Positions 43,582-47,953 of a stretch of DNA of 64,000 bases are shown one piece after another. Where the stretch lies: NCBI RefSeq assembly GCF_950100655.1, contig NZ_CATNLY010000012.1, forward strand, positions 62,001 to 126,000, written 5' to 3'. Both the position numbers and the translations under genes were made by a program. The stretch comes from Pleomorphomonas sp. T1.2MG-36 (lineage in GTDB: Bacteria > Pseudomonadota > Alphaproteobacteria > Rhizobiales > Pleomorphomonadaceae). Position 1 is the first letter of the stretch. The number at the start of each line of letters is the position of its first letter. A model generated the notes under the pieces. That model ran no database searches. It saw only the letters and a list, made by a program, of their open reading frames with translations, and was not told the DNA's origin.

Positions 43582-44634
43582 CTACTTAGCGACGCATCCC
43601 GCAAGGCTTTGCATCATCGAAATCACCGCCTGCCGCCGATCGAGGTTGATCCCATCGGTTTCAGCGACGATGCGATTGACCGTCTCCCAGGCAACGGCAT
43701 AGCCGTTGAGACGGTCGACGCCGCTCCTCAGCGTCAGGCGCATATGTTCGGACAGCCAGCCACGGGCGAGATCGGCACAAAGGTCGAAACTATCGGCGCC
43801 CTTGCGCCCGGCCACGGCATCGGCGAAGCGATAGAGGCGCGGCCGGTCGAGACGCGGGAAGCCGTCGGCGAGGGACCGGAACTGGCGAAAGACCTCCAGG
43901 CCGTTGTTTTCGATGCACTCGATGGCCCGGCGCACCGACCCTTCGGCAAGAGCCGTGAGCGACGGCTTGTCGCCTTCGGCCACCGTCAGGCCGAGGGACG
44001 TCAGCGCCGCATCCAGGTCGTCCGGGGCAAGCGGATCGAGCGCCAGCCGGCGACACCGCGACCGGATGGTCGGCAGGAGCCGACCTGGCGCGTGGGAGAG
44101 AACCAGAAACAGCGACCGTTTCGGCGGCTCCTCCAGCATCTTGAGCAGTGCGTTGGCCGCGGAGACGTTCATGTCGTCGGCGGCATCGACGATGGCGATA
44201 CGATAGCCATCGACACCGGCGGCATTGCCGAAGAACGTCACCGTCTTGCGGATCTCGTCGACGGTGAGCTGCGTCTTGACCTTCTTCGCCTTCTCGTCCC
44301 AGGGGCGACGAAGATGCAGGAGGTTGGGATGGGCGCCCGTCGATACCATCGCGGCAACGCGATCGTCGGCCGGCAACAAGCCGGAAGCCGTCGGCGGCGC
44401 TTTTGTGGGGTCTGGGTGGCTCAGCACGAAGCGGGCGAAGCGAAAGGCCAGCGTCGCCTTGCCGATGCCCTTGGGTCCGGTCAGCAGAATGGCGTGGTGC
44501 AGCCGCCCGCCGGCGTAACCGTCGTGCAACTCGGCGGCGGCGACGGAATGGCCGATCAGCTCGGTCTGTTCGCGCGGCAGCGGAAACCCTTCCAGCCAAT
44601 CGGCCTCGGCGGCGCGATCGTCCTCAATCGCCAC
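43582..44634 (-). CDS. holB: DNA polymerase III subunit delta'
   Basis: 350 aa clamp-loader subunit. A nucleotide-binding loop is seen in LTGPKGIGKATLAFRFARF, and SANALLKMLEEPPKRSLFLVLSH is the typical delta'/gamma segment with sensor residues. The four-Cys zinc module is not obvious, as in other alphaproteobacterial HolB. The GTG start overlaps the tmk stop by 11 bases behind GGGGAGGG. Confidence 0.93.
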   Translation of the reverse strand: MAIEDDRAAEADWLEGFPLPREQTELIGHSVAAAELHDGYAGGRLHHAILLTGPKGIGKATLAFRFARFVLSHPDPTKAPPTASGLLPADDRVAAMVSTGAHPNLLHLRRPWDEKAKKVKTQLTVDEIRKTVTFFGNAAGVDGYRIAIVDAADDMNVSAANALLKMLEEPPKRSLFLVLSHAPGRLLPTIRSRCRRLALDPLAPDDLDAALTSLGLTVAEGDKPSLTALAEGSVRRAIECIENNGLEVFRQFRSLADGFPRLDRPRLYRFADAVAGRKGADSFDLCADLARGWLSEHMRLTLRSGVDRLNGYAVAWETVNRIVAETDGINLDRRQAVISMMQSLAGCVAK

Positions 44635-45283
44635 GGGCGCCCTCCCCGTCGAGCCGGAATCGGCTTGTCACCAGCTCAAGGATCTCAGCGGACACCACAT
44701 CCTTTTCGCGACTGCCGTCGACGACGACGCAGCGCTCGGGAAACCGATCGGCCAAGGCGAGGAACCCCCGTCGGCGCGCTTCGTGGACGGCGACGGCGTC
44801 GCTCTCGAAGCGGTCGGCGCCTTCCGAACGATGGCCGACGCGGGCGAGTCCGACCGAGACGGGCACGTCGATGATGACGGTGAGATCGGGAATGGTGGAG
44901 CCGATGGCCGCGTCGACGAGGCCATCGACGACATCGGCGGGCAGCCCGCCGGCCGTGCCCTGATAGACGCGACTTGAATCGGCAAAGCGATCGCAGACGA
45001 CGAAGGCACCTCGCCCGAGCGCCGGCTCGATCAGTTCGGCGACGTGATCGATACGGGCGGCCGCAAAAAGATAAGCTTCGCCCAGAACGCCGAGCGGCTT
45101 GGCCCGGCCGGACAGGAGAAGGCCGCGAATGGTCTCGGCCGCGGGCGAGCCACCGGGCTCGCGCGTCAGCACCACGTCGAGGCCGCGCGCCTCAAGCGCC
45201 GCCGTCAGGCGTTTCGACTGCGTCGACTTGCCGGTGCCCTCACCGCCCTCGAAGGTGATGAACCTACCCCTGGTGCCGCCCAC
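44624..45283 (-). CDS. tmk: Thymidylate kinase
   Basis: 219 aa. It phosphorylates dTMP to dTDP. The P-loop is FEGGEGTGKSTQ, the DR motif is seen in CDRFADSSRVYQG, and a lid region follows around LARVGHRSEGADRFE. The GTG start at 45283 lies inside the preceding gene (20-base overlap) with GGGAG upstream. Length and motifs are standard. Confidence 0.95.
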   Translation of the reverse strand: MGGTRGRFITFEGGEGTGKSTQSKRLTAALEARGLDVVLTREPGGSPAAETIRGLLLSGRAKPLGVLGEAYLFAAARIDHVAELIEPALGRGAFVVCDRFADSSRVYQGTAGGLPADVVDGLVDAAIGSTIPDLTVIIDVPVSVGLARVGHRSEGADRFESDAVAVHEARRRGFLALADRFPERCVVVDGSREKDVVSAEILELVTSRFRLDGEGARGD

Positions 45284-46481
45284 GCAATGCTCCCAAATTC
45301 ACGATATCCTCGATCGATATAGACCCGATCGTCCTATACCACCAGCCGGCGAACATCTCGGCAAAGCCGTCGAGCGCCCGGTCGCGGATCTCGCCGCGTT
45401 CGACGTCTGCGGCGGCTTCGAGCGTCACGGACTGGTAAAGGCGGTCGCCGACCCTGACTTCGAGGCGGGCGACCGGCGCACCGCGCCGGATCGGCGCTGG
45501 CACCGGACCATCGTAGACCACGGCAAGGCGAAACTGCGAGCGATCGCCGGTCGGCAGGGTCAAATTCACCGGTGCGCCACCGGTGGAGACAACCGCCACG
45601 TCCGGCGCATTGCCGCCGAACACCTTCACGCGACCGATCTCGGCCCCGGACGGGTAGATCTCGAACCGTCCGTACTCCGAGAACGCGCCCTCAACCAAGG
45701 CCTTGAGATCCTTGTCGCGATCGGCGAGCGAAGCATAGCCACTCGCCGCGAGAGTGACACGGCGATCGCCGCGCCCCGCCGTCAGCAGAGCGCCCAAGCC
45801 AGCCGCCTCATCGAAAGCCAGCATCATGCCGTCGACACCCGGGAGCTCCTTGATGAAACGCGTCTTGTTGGTCTGGTTGATCTTGTTCCAGAGAAACTCC
45901 GGCTGGCTGTAAAGCGCGTAGCGGTCGGGATAGGTCGTCCTGATATGGCCGGCCAACGCCAGCATGTCGGAAAGCGTGGTCTTGGCCTGGGGATCGGGGT
46001 AGCCGGTCGGATTGGCGAACCGGCTATCCTTGAGGCCGATGCGCGCGACATAGGCGTTCATGCGCGCCGTGAAGGCCGCCTCCGAACCGGAAAGCCCCTC
46101 GGCCAGGGCGATGGCAGCGTCATTGGCGTAGTCGACGACGAGGCCGCGCAACAGATCGCTCACCGGCACGAAGGACTTCACGGCCGCGAACATGGTGGTT
46201 ACGCGGGCAGGTGCGCCACCGGTGCGCCAAGCGTGTTCGCTGATGGGATATAGCGTCGCGTCGGTCACTTCGCCGGTCTTCAACGCCTCGAAAACGACGG
46301 CGGCGGTGACCAGCTTGGCGAAATTGGCCGGCGCGAAAGGCTTGTCCTCGTCCCTGGCTATCAGCAGCGAACCGGTGGTCTCGTCATGCAAAGCCACGCG
46401 CGGCGCGACGCTTTCGAGCGCAACAACAGGGCTGGATACCAGGGCGGCAACCAGAAGGAACGGCAGAACGAACCCACGCAT
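45264..46481 (-). CDS. D-alanyl-D-alanine carboxypeptidase-family protein with all three catalytic motifs altered
   Basis: 405 aa with a signal peptide (about 1-21, ending VVA) and the PBP5/DacA fold pattern throughout. The serine-nucleophile motif SxxK reads N53-F-A-K56; the codon at 46323-46325 is AAT. The SxN motif reads Y118-A-N120, inside the conserved LLRGLVVDYANDAAIALAEG context. The KTG motif reads M220-L-A222, in GVDGMMLAFDEAAG where active members have GVDGIKTG. The neighbouring family residues are well kept, so this is not a decayed frame. A transpeptidase reaction is not expected; a scaffold or regulatory role in septal peptidoglycan work next to RlpA is plausible. A PBP5-type C-terminal domain follows from about residue 265. 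Confidence 0.88.
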   Translation of the reverse strand: MRGFVLPFLLVAALVSSPVVALESVAPRVALHDETTGSLLIARDEDKPFAPANFAKLVTAAVVFEALKTGEVTDATLYPISEHAWRTGGAPARVTTMFAAVKSFVPVSDLLRGLVVDYANDAAIALAEGLSGSEAAFTARMNAYVARIGLKDSRFANPTGYPDPQAKTTLSDMLALAGHIRTTYPDRYALYSQPEFLWNKINQTNKTRFIKELPGVDGMMLAFDEAAGLGALLTAGRGDRRVTLAASGYASLADRDKDLKALVEGAFSEYGRFEIYPSGAEIGRVKVFGGNAPDVAVVSTGGAPVNLTLPTGDRSQFRLAVVYDGPVPAPIRRGAPVARLEVRVGDRLYQSVTLEAAADVERGEIRDRALDGFAEMFAGWWYRTIGSISIEDIVNLGALRGRHQG

Positions 46482-46552: not shown

Positions 46553-47953
46553 TCAGCGCAGGAGACGGGCTCCGTCGATGCCGGCCGCCTGGGCAGCGGC
46601 GATCGCCTGATCCGGCGTAACCGTCAGAGCCGTAAGGCGCATCAGCTTCATGTCGCGTCCGCCAACCGAAATGTCGGTCACGACGGGCGTTCCATAAGCG
46701 GACAACACAGCGCTCACCTTCAAGACATTGTCCGGATTGCCGAATACGCCAAGCTGGACCACCGGTCCGGACGGTTCGCGAGTGACGGCCGGCTTCGGTC
46801 CGGCCATTCCTTCAAGCTTGCTGACCAACTCGGACATGCCAGTGCCGCCCTCAAACCCATCGACGGCCTGATAGGCCTGCGACACGCGATCGGCGGCGTA
46901 GCCCGACGCATTGGGCGGCAGCGGCGGCAGCGCCACGTCGCCGAACATGACGGTCGGCTGATAGGTGTTGGCGTTGGTATCGGCGTAGCTCAAGCGCGGC
47001 TGCGGCAGCGGAACGGTCGAATTGAACGTGGCCGGGGCAAGGGCAGCGACTTGCGATTGAGCGACAAAATCAGCCGGATCGGCGGACGCGATGGTCACAT
47101 AGTCAAAGGTTTCGACCGGACGGGGCAACGGCACCACGTCGATGGCCGGCGCAGGGGTGCCGGCGACATCGGCCGGAGCCGCGGCGGCCATGACGGCAGG
47201 AGCGGCAGCCGGCGCGGGTTTCGGCGAATCCGAGCTGTCGAAGACATGCATCATGGTCTTCACGCCCGGCAGCGCCTCGACGGCGGCGAGCATGACGTTC
47301 GGCTTGTCAGCCTGCGGCTCCCCGAGCGCCGGACCACGATAGGAGGCGAGCAAGAAAGCGCTGTCGTCGCCCTCGGTCGACGCCGGGCCGACATACTCGA
47401 CGCGAATCTTGGCGACGCCGGCGCGCTTGACGCCGAGCATGTCGGCGGCGCGCTGCGACATGTCGAGCACACGGTTGGAATGGAACGGGCCGCGATCGTT
47501 GACGCGGACAATGACCGAGCGGCCGGTGGCCAGACTGGTCAGCCGCGCATAGGACGGCAGCGGCATGGTCGGATGGGCGGCGGAAATCGAAGAGCTATCG
47601 AACACTTCGCCATTGGCGGTACGGCGACCATGGAAATCGGTACCGTACCAGCTGGCGAGACCGACCACCTTGTAGTCGGGATCGACCCTTGGAACATAGG
47701 TCTTGCCGGCGATCTGGTAGGGCTTGCCAACCATGGAGCGGCCGCCGCCTTTCGGCACCGCCTCGCCCATGGCAACCACGCGCGGGCTGGGCGCGACGCC
47801 GTACTTGGGATCGACCTTCGCCTTGGCGGACTTGAGAGGGCCCTGTTCGGTAGTTCCGCAGCCCGCTACACCGATCGCCAGAACAAGTGATGTGGACATC
47901 ACCGTCAACAGCGTTTTCGTCGTCGAGCGCGTGCCGTTTCGCCCTGCAGTCAT
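46553..47953 (-). CDS. rlpA: RlpA septal-ring lytic transglycosylase-type lipoprotein
   Basis: 466 aa. The signal peptide ends with the lipobox GVAGC (about residue 32). The double-psi beta-barrel domain is clear: VGLASWYGTDFHGRRTANGE and VRVNDRGPFHSNRVLDMS, with the catalytic Asp in the NDRGPF segment and an upstream Glu in NGEVFD. A long Ala/Pro linker (about 240-350) leads to a C-terminal SPOR domain (VVQLGVFGNPDNVLKVSAVL). RlpA cleaves denuded glycan strands at the septum. Followed by the DacA-like gene after 71 bases. Confidence 0.92.
   Translation of the reverse strand: MTAGRNGTRSTTKTLLTVMSTSLVLAIGVAGCGTTEQGPLKSAKAKVDPKYGVAPSPRVVAMGEAVPKGGGRSMVGKPYQIAGKTYVPRVDPDYKVVGLASWYGTDFHGRRTANGEVFDSSSISAAHPTMPLPSYARLTSLATGRSVIVRVNDRGPFHSNRVLDMSQRAADMLGVKRAGVAKIRVEYVGPASTEGDDSAFLLASYRGPALGEPQADKPNVMLAAVEALPGVKTMMHVFDSSDSPKPAPAAAPAVMAAAAPADVAGTPAPAIDVVPLPRPVETFDYVTIASADPADFVAQSQVAALAPATFNSTVPLPQPRLSYADTNANTYQPTVMFGDVALPPLPPNASGYAADRVSQAYQAVDGFEGGTGMSELVSKLEGMAGPKPAVTREPSGPVVQLGVFGNPDNVLKVSAVLSAYGTPVVTDISVGGRDMKLMRLTALTVTPDQAIAAAQAAGIDGARLLR

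Follow-up and report, generated by a model that had tools for sequence, protein, structure and literature searches.

The rlpA-linked DacA-type protein of Pleomorphomonas is very likely a pseudoenzyme with a probable docking role

Introduction

Penicillin-binding protein 5 (PBP5), or DacA, combines the Peptidase_S11 and PBP5_C domains (solved structures 4k91 and 1nzo), and active serine DD-carboxypeptidases of the S11 family carry an SxxK motif with the nucleophile serine, an SxN motif and a KTG motif. Here, we describe a DacA-type protein of the same fold family in which the nucleophile serine, the SxN serine and KTG are all replaced. It is encoded by a dac gene located between rlpA and tmk in a stretch of 64,000 nucleotides of Pleomorphomonas sp. 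T1.2MG-36 (contig NZ_CATNLY010000012.1, positions 62,001 to 126,000), hereafter the window, whose own numbering is used for all coordinates. Intact rlpA-linked DacA orthologs from other families share the rlpA-dacA-tmk order in most loci and are 29-40% identical to the window protein but, unlike it, they keep SxxK, SxN and KTG (71 of the 157 orthologs compared here).

A comparable way of working is known from DipM of Caulobacter, a dead peptidoglycan-hydrolase domain on which autolysins dock. Autolysins, lytic transglycosylases included, are under the control of inactive LytM proteins of this kind, and DipM stimulates some of them (PMC10336132). The likeness extends to the way of working only: DipM has a LytM metallopeptidase fold and an experimentally described role, whereas the window protein belongs to S11/PBP5, not LytM, and its role is proposed from sequence and a structure model.

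Two Agrobacterium tumefaciens genes, Atu1500 (RlpA) and Atu1499 (described as a DD-carboxypeptidase), are synthetically detrimental with loss of yejABEF (PMC9790009), and a DD-carboxypeptidase called dac, which may or may not be Atu1499, is among the genes that are synthetically essential in cells without LD-transpeptidases (PMC11527210). RlpA of Pseudomonas aeruginosa binds PBP7 and PBP4 (PMC9712689); the Escherichia coli ftsK44 mutation is suppressed largely by deletion of dacA and partially by deletion of rlpA (PMC6113214); and four putative DD-carboxypeptidases are listed for Sinorhizobium meliloti (PMC7327166). In the open-access literature, we found no report of a DD-carboxypeptidase or PBP pseudoenzyme, or of one lacking the catalytic serine, although absence there proves little.

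Results

The dac gene (45264..46481; all features described here lie on the minus strand) has an ATG start and an open frame, and encodes a protein of 405 residues that matches Peptidase_S11 (E 6.5e-44) and PBP5_C (E 9.2e-9) in Pfam, which places it in the Peptidase_S11/PBP5 family. Alignment to motif-complete relatives showed that the nucleophile serine of SxxK is replaced by Asn53 (AAT, 46323..46325), giving NFAK, that the SxN site reads Tyr118-Ala-Asn120 (YAN, 46122..46130), and that the KTG site reads Met220-Leu-Ala222 (MLA, 45816..45824). None of the three motifs of an active S11 DD-carboxypeptidase is present, and we predict that the protein, with all three altered, no longer trims peptidoglycan stems. 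These replacements, together with the intact frame adjoining rlpA, had been reported in a first-pass annotation of the window and were borne out by reading the sequence.

An ortholog was present in all 20 genomes of the window's family (Pleomorphomonas, Oryzibacter, Chthonobacter and Methylobrevis, with Hartmannibacter among the database proteins), and its frame was open in each. Asn53, Lys56, Asn120 and Ala222 were found in 20 out of 20 sequences, as was a new residue, Asp224; position 118 was Tyr in 19 and His in one, and the former KTG lysine was replaced by Met, Val, Ile or Ser. The changes are thus neither sequencing errors nor peculiar to one genome with intact close relatives. The first-pass annotation had described all three motifs as lost; each is indeed altered but, since Lys56 of SxxK and Asn120 of SxN remain throughout the family, they are altered rather than erased. 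Among the best 120 database proteins, the nearest 71 carried Asn at the nucleophile position in 70 cases, the remaining one being truncated there, and the other 49 kept Ser with further motif residues lost. Four of the seven former catalytic positions were invariant in the family (P 0.038); the case for selection rests on fixation and on the ratio of nonsynonymous to synonymous substitution rates (dN/dS), not on this count. Over 66 pairs within the family, dN/dS of dac was about 0.10; in the comparison with its neighbors it was 0.098, close to the 0.101 of rlpA, with 0.077 for tmk.

The predicted structure, made from an alignment that included intact relatives, keeps the PBP5 fold with a predicted local distance difference test (pLDDT) score of 90.7, and its structure matches are to S11/PBP5 proteins. 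Two further S11 genes, with the motifs SLTK/SAN/KTG and SITK/SAN/KTG, were found in the same genome, so that S11 genes with complete motifs do exist elsewhere in it, as the first-pass annotation had proposed to check. More broadly, 32 of the 33 non-ortholog S11 matches in 14 genomes of lineages with a degenerate DacA kept the three motifs; these paralogs may have rendered DacA catalysis dispensable. In the exception (L224, G114:C14:28637-30290), KTG reads KSG and SxN is not clearly recognizable; this S11 paralog may be a further copy undergoing degeneration.

To place these changes in the order Hyphomicrobiales, we searched 397 genomes. At E 1e-40, 355 of them gave a match, and we read a selection of these together with named loci. 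Once identical proteins, two paralogs and a truncated row (L184) had been removed, 44 families contributed 157 orthologs, a non-random sample in which relatives of the window are favored. We called an ortholog degenerate when any of Ser, Lys, SxN and KTG had been lost. On this basis, 71 orthologs were intact and 86 degenerate, the latter falling in 12 of the 44 families. Of the degenerate orthologs, 81 lacked KTG, 71 lacked SxN and 8 lacked the SxxK lysine, and 43 had another residue in place of the nucleophile (Asn in 32, Ala in 11); all three motifs were hit in 35, of which 20 came from the window's family. In one family (f41; Stappia, Pseudovibrio), all 31 rows were degenerate. Replacement of the nucleophile by Ala was seen in L086-L088, L070 and L150 (f15), in L112, L113 and L157 (f50), in L071 (f24), and in L083 and L084 (f41). 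Regarding the 42 genomes without a match, families f4, f17 and f45 recurred among 20 of them and were not noticed among the matched rows.

Proteins of another family (f23) were 99% identical to those of named Rhizobium, and their best 120 matches were all degenerate. A further search added 107 new proteins, all degenerate, including those of Sinorhizobium, Ensifer, Ciceribacter, Neorhizobium and Agrobacterium sp.; the Mesorhizobium australicum protein was also degenerate. The degenerate proteins of Rhizobium, Sinorhizobium and Mesorhizobium carry a carboxypeptidase annotation. When the three best-match lists were pooled, 346 of 347 proteins were degenerate, the remaining one being truncated in SxxK; being lists of best matches, they describe those particular lineages, not an average for the order. 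Rhizobium-type proteins have lost SxN and KTG, and nearly all keep Ser and Lys of SxxK, which makes their inactivity less certain than that of the Pleomorphomonas protein. Outside the order, 69 out of 69 orthologs were intact (70 of the 104 matching genomes of the class were covered, mostly the better-scoring ones, and L226, likewise intact, belongs to the order), in a search whose query was an intact protein and which was hence biased towards intact matches.

A carefully built tree of 45 degenerate and 34 intact rows (79 in all), from which the motif columns were excluded, gave 8 state changes, with a 5-95% range of 6 to 8 over 200 bootstrap trees and no tree with a single change; 4 changes were forced by well-supported branches only. 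A larger quick tree gave 6 changes, at least 4 of them forced. The change count does not separate loss from regain, although regain of the catalytic motifs seems less likely than repeated loss. Recurrent motif loss within the order is well supported. The window's family formed a clade (support 100/99) with f41 as its sister (100/93). The first-pass annotation had asked whether the NxxK form makes up a clade: the all-NxxK family does, but NxxK also occurs in Pseudovibrio, which lies within another family, nested with Ser-bearing relatives of Stappia. Asn would accordingly have been gained at the nucleophile position either twice or once, with a reversal in the latter case. In family f34 (L114-L117, L148), Ser and KTG were kept, the SxxK lysine was replaced by Thr, and SxN became SxG or SxA in 4 of the 5 rows; f34 is an independent lineage with a different order of loss.

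Between-family identity was lower in degenerate than in intact pairs around the motifs (KTG, 0.42 versus 0.70; SxN, 0.52 versus 0.69; SxxK helix, 0.53 versus 0.64), level in the PBP5_C domain (0.36 and 0.36) and similar in the C-terminal helix (0.34 versus 0.32). It was higher in degenerate pairs in segments 81-99 (0.73 versus 0.68) and 100-113 (0.50 versus 0.41), all of these being plain differences with no significance test. Residues 81-113 (46143..46241), a rim segment comprising the SEHAWRTGGAP loop, a strand and the start of the next helix, may therefore be the surviving functional surface and are our proposed docking surface; within them, W85, R86, G88 and G89 were at least as conserved in degenerate as in intact rows. 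The hydrophobic N-terminus, ending at the invariant Ala21, is a likely signal peptide (residues 1-21, 46419..46481). Pfam delimits the PBP5_C stalk at residues 272-362 (45396..45668), and a helix is predicted at the C-terminus (residues 365-386, 45324..45389), where PBP5-type proteins typically have an amphipathic anchor; it contains the invariant G379-W380-W381 and is a putative membrane anchor.

Directly upstream of dac lies rlpA (46553..47953), whose product, of the lytic transglycosylase family, matched DPBB_1 only in Pfam. Downstream lies tmk (44624..45283; Thymidylate_kin), followed by genes for a DNA polymerase III delta-type protein and a methionyl-tRNA synthetase. The last 20 bases of dac are shared with the start of tmk, an arrangement suggestive of translational coupling. 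With L184 included, 81 of 87 degenerate loci had rlpA upstream of dac and 85 of 87 had tmk downstream; among the intact loci, the counts were 60 of 71 and 70 of 71, respectively, some flanks ending early. Several possible correlates of degeneration were considered and set aside. RlpA does not seem to have lost its own active site, since the aligned DPBB core looked kept in 15 of 16 loci (the flank of L162 gave no RlpA). Loss of SPOR from RlpA was not retained either, as the other RlpA C-terminal tails varied by eye in both groups. MreB was found in 4 of 80 genomes of the order, all with an intact DacA (families f2, f18, f25 and f39); with DacA states counted by hand, it was found in 0 of 38 degenerate genomes and 4 of 42 intact ones (Fisher P 0.12), which does not lead us to claim its loss as a permissive event.

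Discussion

Because the altered motifs are fixed in 20 out of 20 family genomes, dN/dS is low, the PBP5 fold is predicted to be kept and motif-complete paralogs are present, the Pleomorphomonas-family protein is very likely a selected pseudoenzyme, with catalytic residues lost while frame and predicted fold are maintained under purifying selection, as the first-pass annotation had suggested in preference to error or drift. A sequencing or assembly error, for which we found no supporting point, is refuted because 20 assemblies agree with one another and with 70 database proteins, a part of which come from those genomes, and its probability is negligible. Neutral decay heading to gene loss would find some support in the 42 genomes of the order without a match, which indicate that the gene can be lost, and in the lower mean between-family identity of degenerate than of intact orthologs (0.43 versus 0.49). 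However, a dN/dS far below 1, a frame open in every family genome and new residues shared across the family at the former catalytic sites make decay highly improbable. Lys56 and Asn120 could, with Tyr118, support a different reaction: the YAN motif is known from class C beta-lactamases, and Lys56, Asn120 and the new Asp224 are each fixed in the family, with Tyr118 in 19 of 20 sequences. A changed enzyme is nevertheless quite improbable, since the nucleophile gave way to Asn and not to Ser, Cys or Thr, and since related lineages lose different elements (Lys changes to Leu or Thr, or Ser to Ala), a pattern that a loss of constraint would explain better than a single new chemistry.

Without catalysis, the protein might still hold pentapeptide stems uncut in the old cleft, as a peptidoglycan-binding decoy or sensor that shields or reports uncut stems. 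The fixed Lys56 and Asn120, the conserved Asp121 and cleft rim, and the intact predicted fold would suit such a function. Yet KTG and Arg206 (Lys here), which we take to hold the terminal carboxylate in PBP5, are both changed, and two bulky residues, F54 and Y118, occupy positions that are mostly Met and Ser in intact orthologs, so that we regard this function as unlikely. We favor, with a probability of about 60%, a protein that is held at the membrane without catalytic function and serves as a dock by which a cell-wall hydrolase is positioned or regulated; the RlpA encoded by the next gene would be the most probable such hydrolase. In this proposal, the signal peptide would export the protein, the C-terminal helix on the PBP5_C stalk would anchor it at the inner membrane, and the face that once held the active site, with N53, F54 and Y118 changing its pocket, would be presented as a binding surface on which a hydrolase, RlpA first, could dock. 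The docking role is probable, with RlpA as the first candidate partner.

Several observations weigh against this docking reading. The intact relatives in its alignment bias the structure model towards the PBP5 fold, and the hydrophobic moment of helix 365-386 showed no excess over shuffles (p 0.52; 0.48 in the best 18-residue frame, 368-385). Ser is kept at the nucleophile position in 43 of the 86 degenerate rows of the order, so that some residual activity is possible in those lineages. The rlpA-dacA order persists with an intact DacA too and is, on its own, no proof of a non-catalytic link. Moreover, a mirror-tree analysis of 135 loci gave no RlpA-specific co-evolution signal when Tmk was controlled for: the partial correlation was 0.07 to 0.16 for dac and rlpA given tmk, versus 0.29 to 0.41 for dac and tmk given rlpA. 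Atu1499 is assigned as the ortholog of the window gene from adjacent locus numbers and family, not from its own sequence, and the P. aeruginosa article names, in its accessible part, PBP7 and PBP4 as the RlpA partners rather than the PBP5 whose gene lies close to rlpA (PMC9712689). An RlpA-regulating role, already raised in the first-pass annotation, is favored by gene linkage and published genetics and not by the co-evolution test.

A wider, tentative idea, which we hold to be possible rather than probable, is that PBP5/DacA has since ancient times had another role besides catalysis, linked to lytic transglycosylases, and that Hyphomicrobiales kept this role alone after paralogs took over trimming, independently and repeatedly yielding a hydrolase activator or scaffold, including in Rhizobium, Sinorhizobium and Mesorhizobium. 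The Pleomorphomonas gene annotated as a DD-carboxypeptidase very probably is not one. The same doubt extends to the rhizobia, where SxN and KTG are lost and SxxK is kept; if it is justified, cell-wall mutants there would read differently. Recurrent motif loss, with gene order, fold and selection kept, offers a natural separation of the catalytic and non-catalytic roles of PBP5, and the question of why bacteria keep so many such proteins becomes directly testable within one order.
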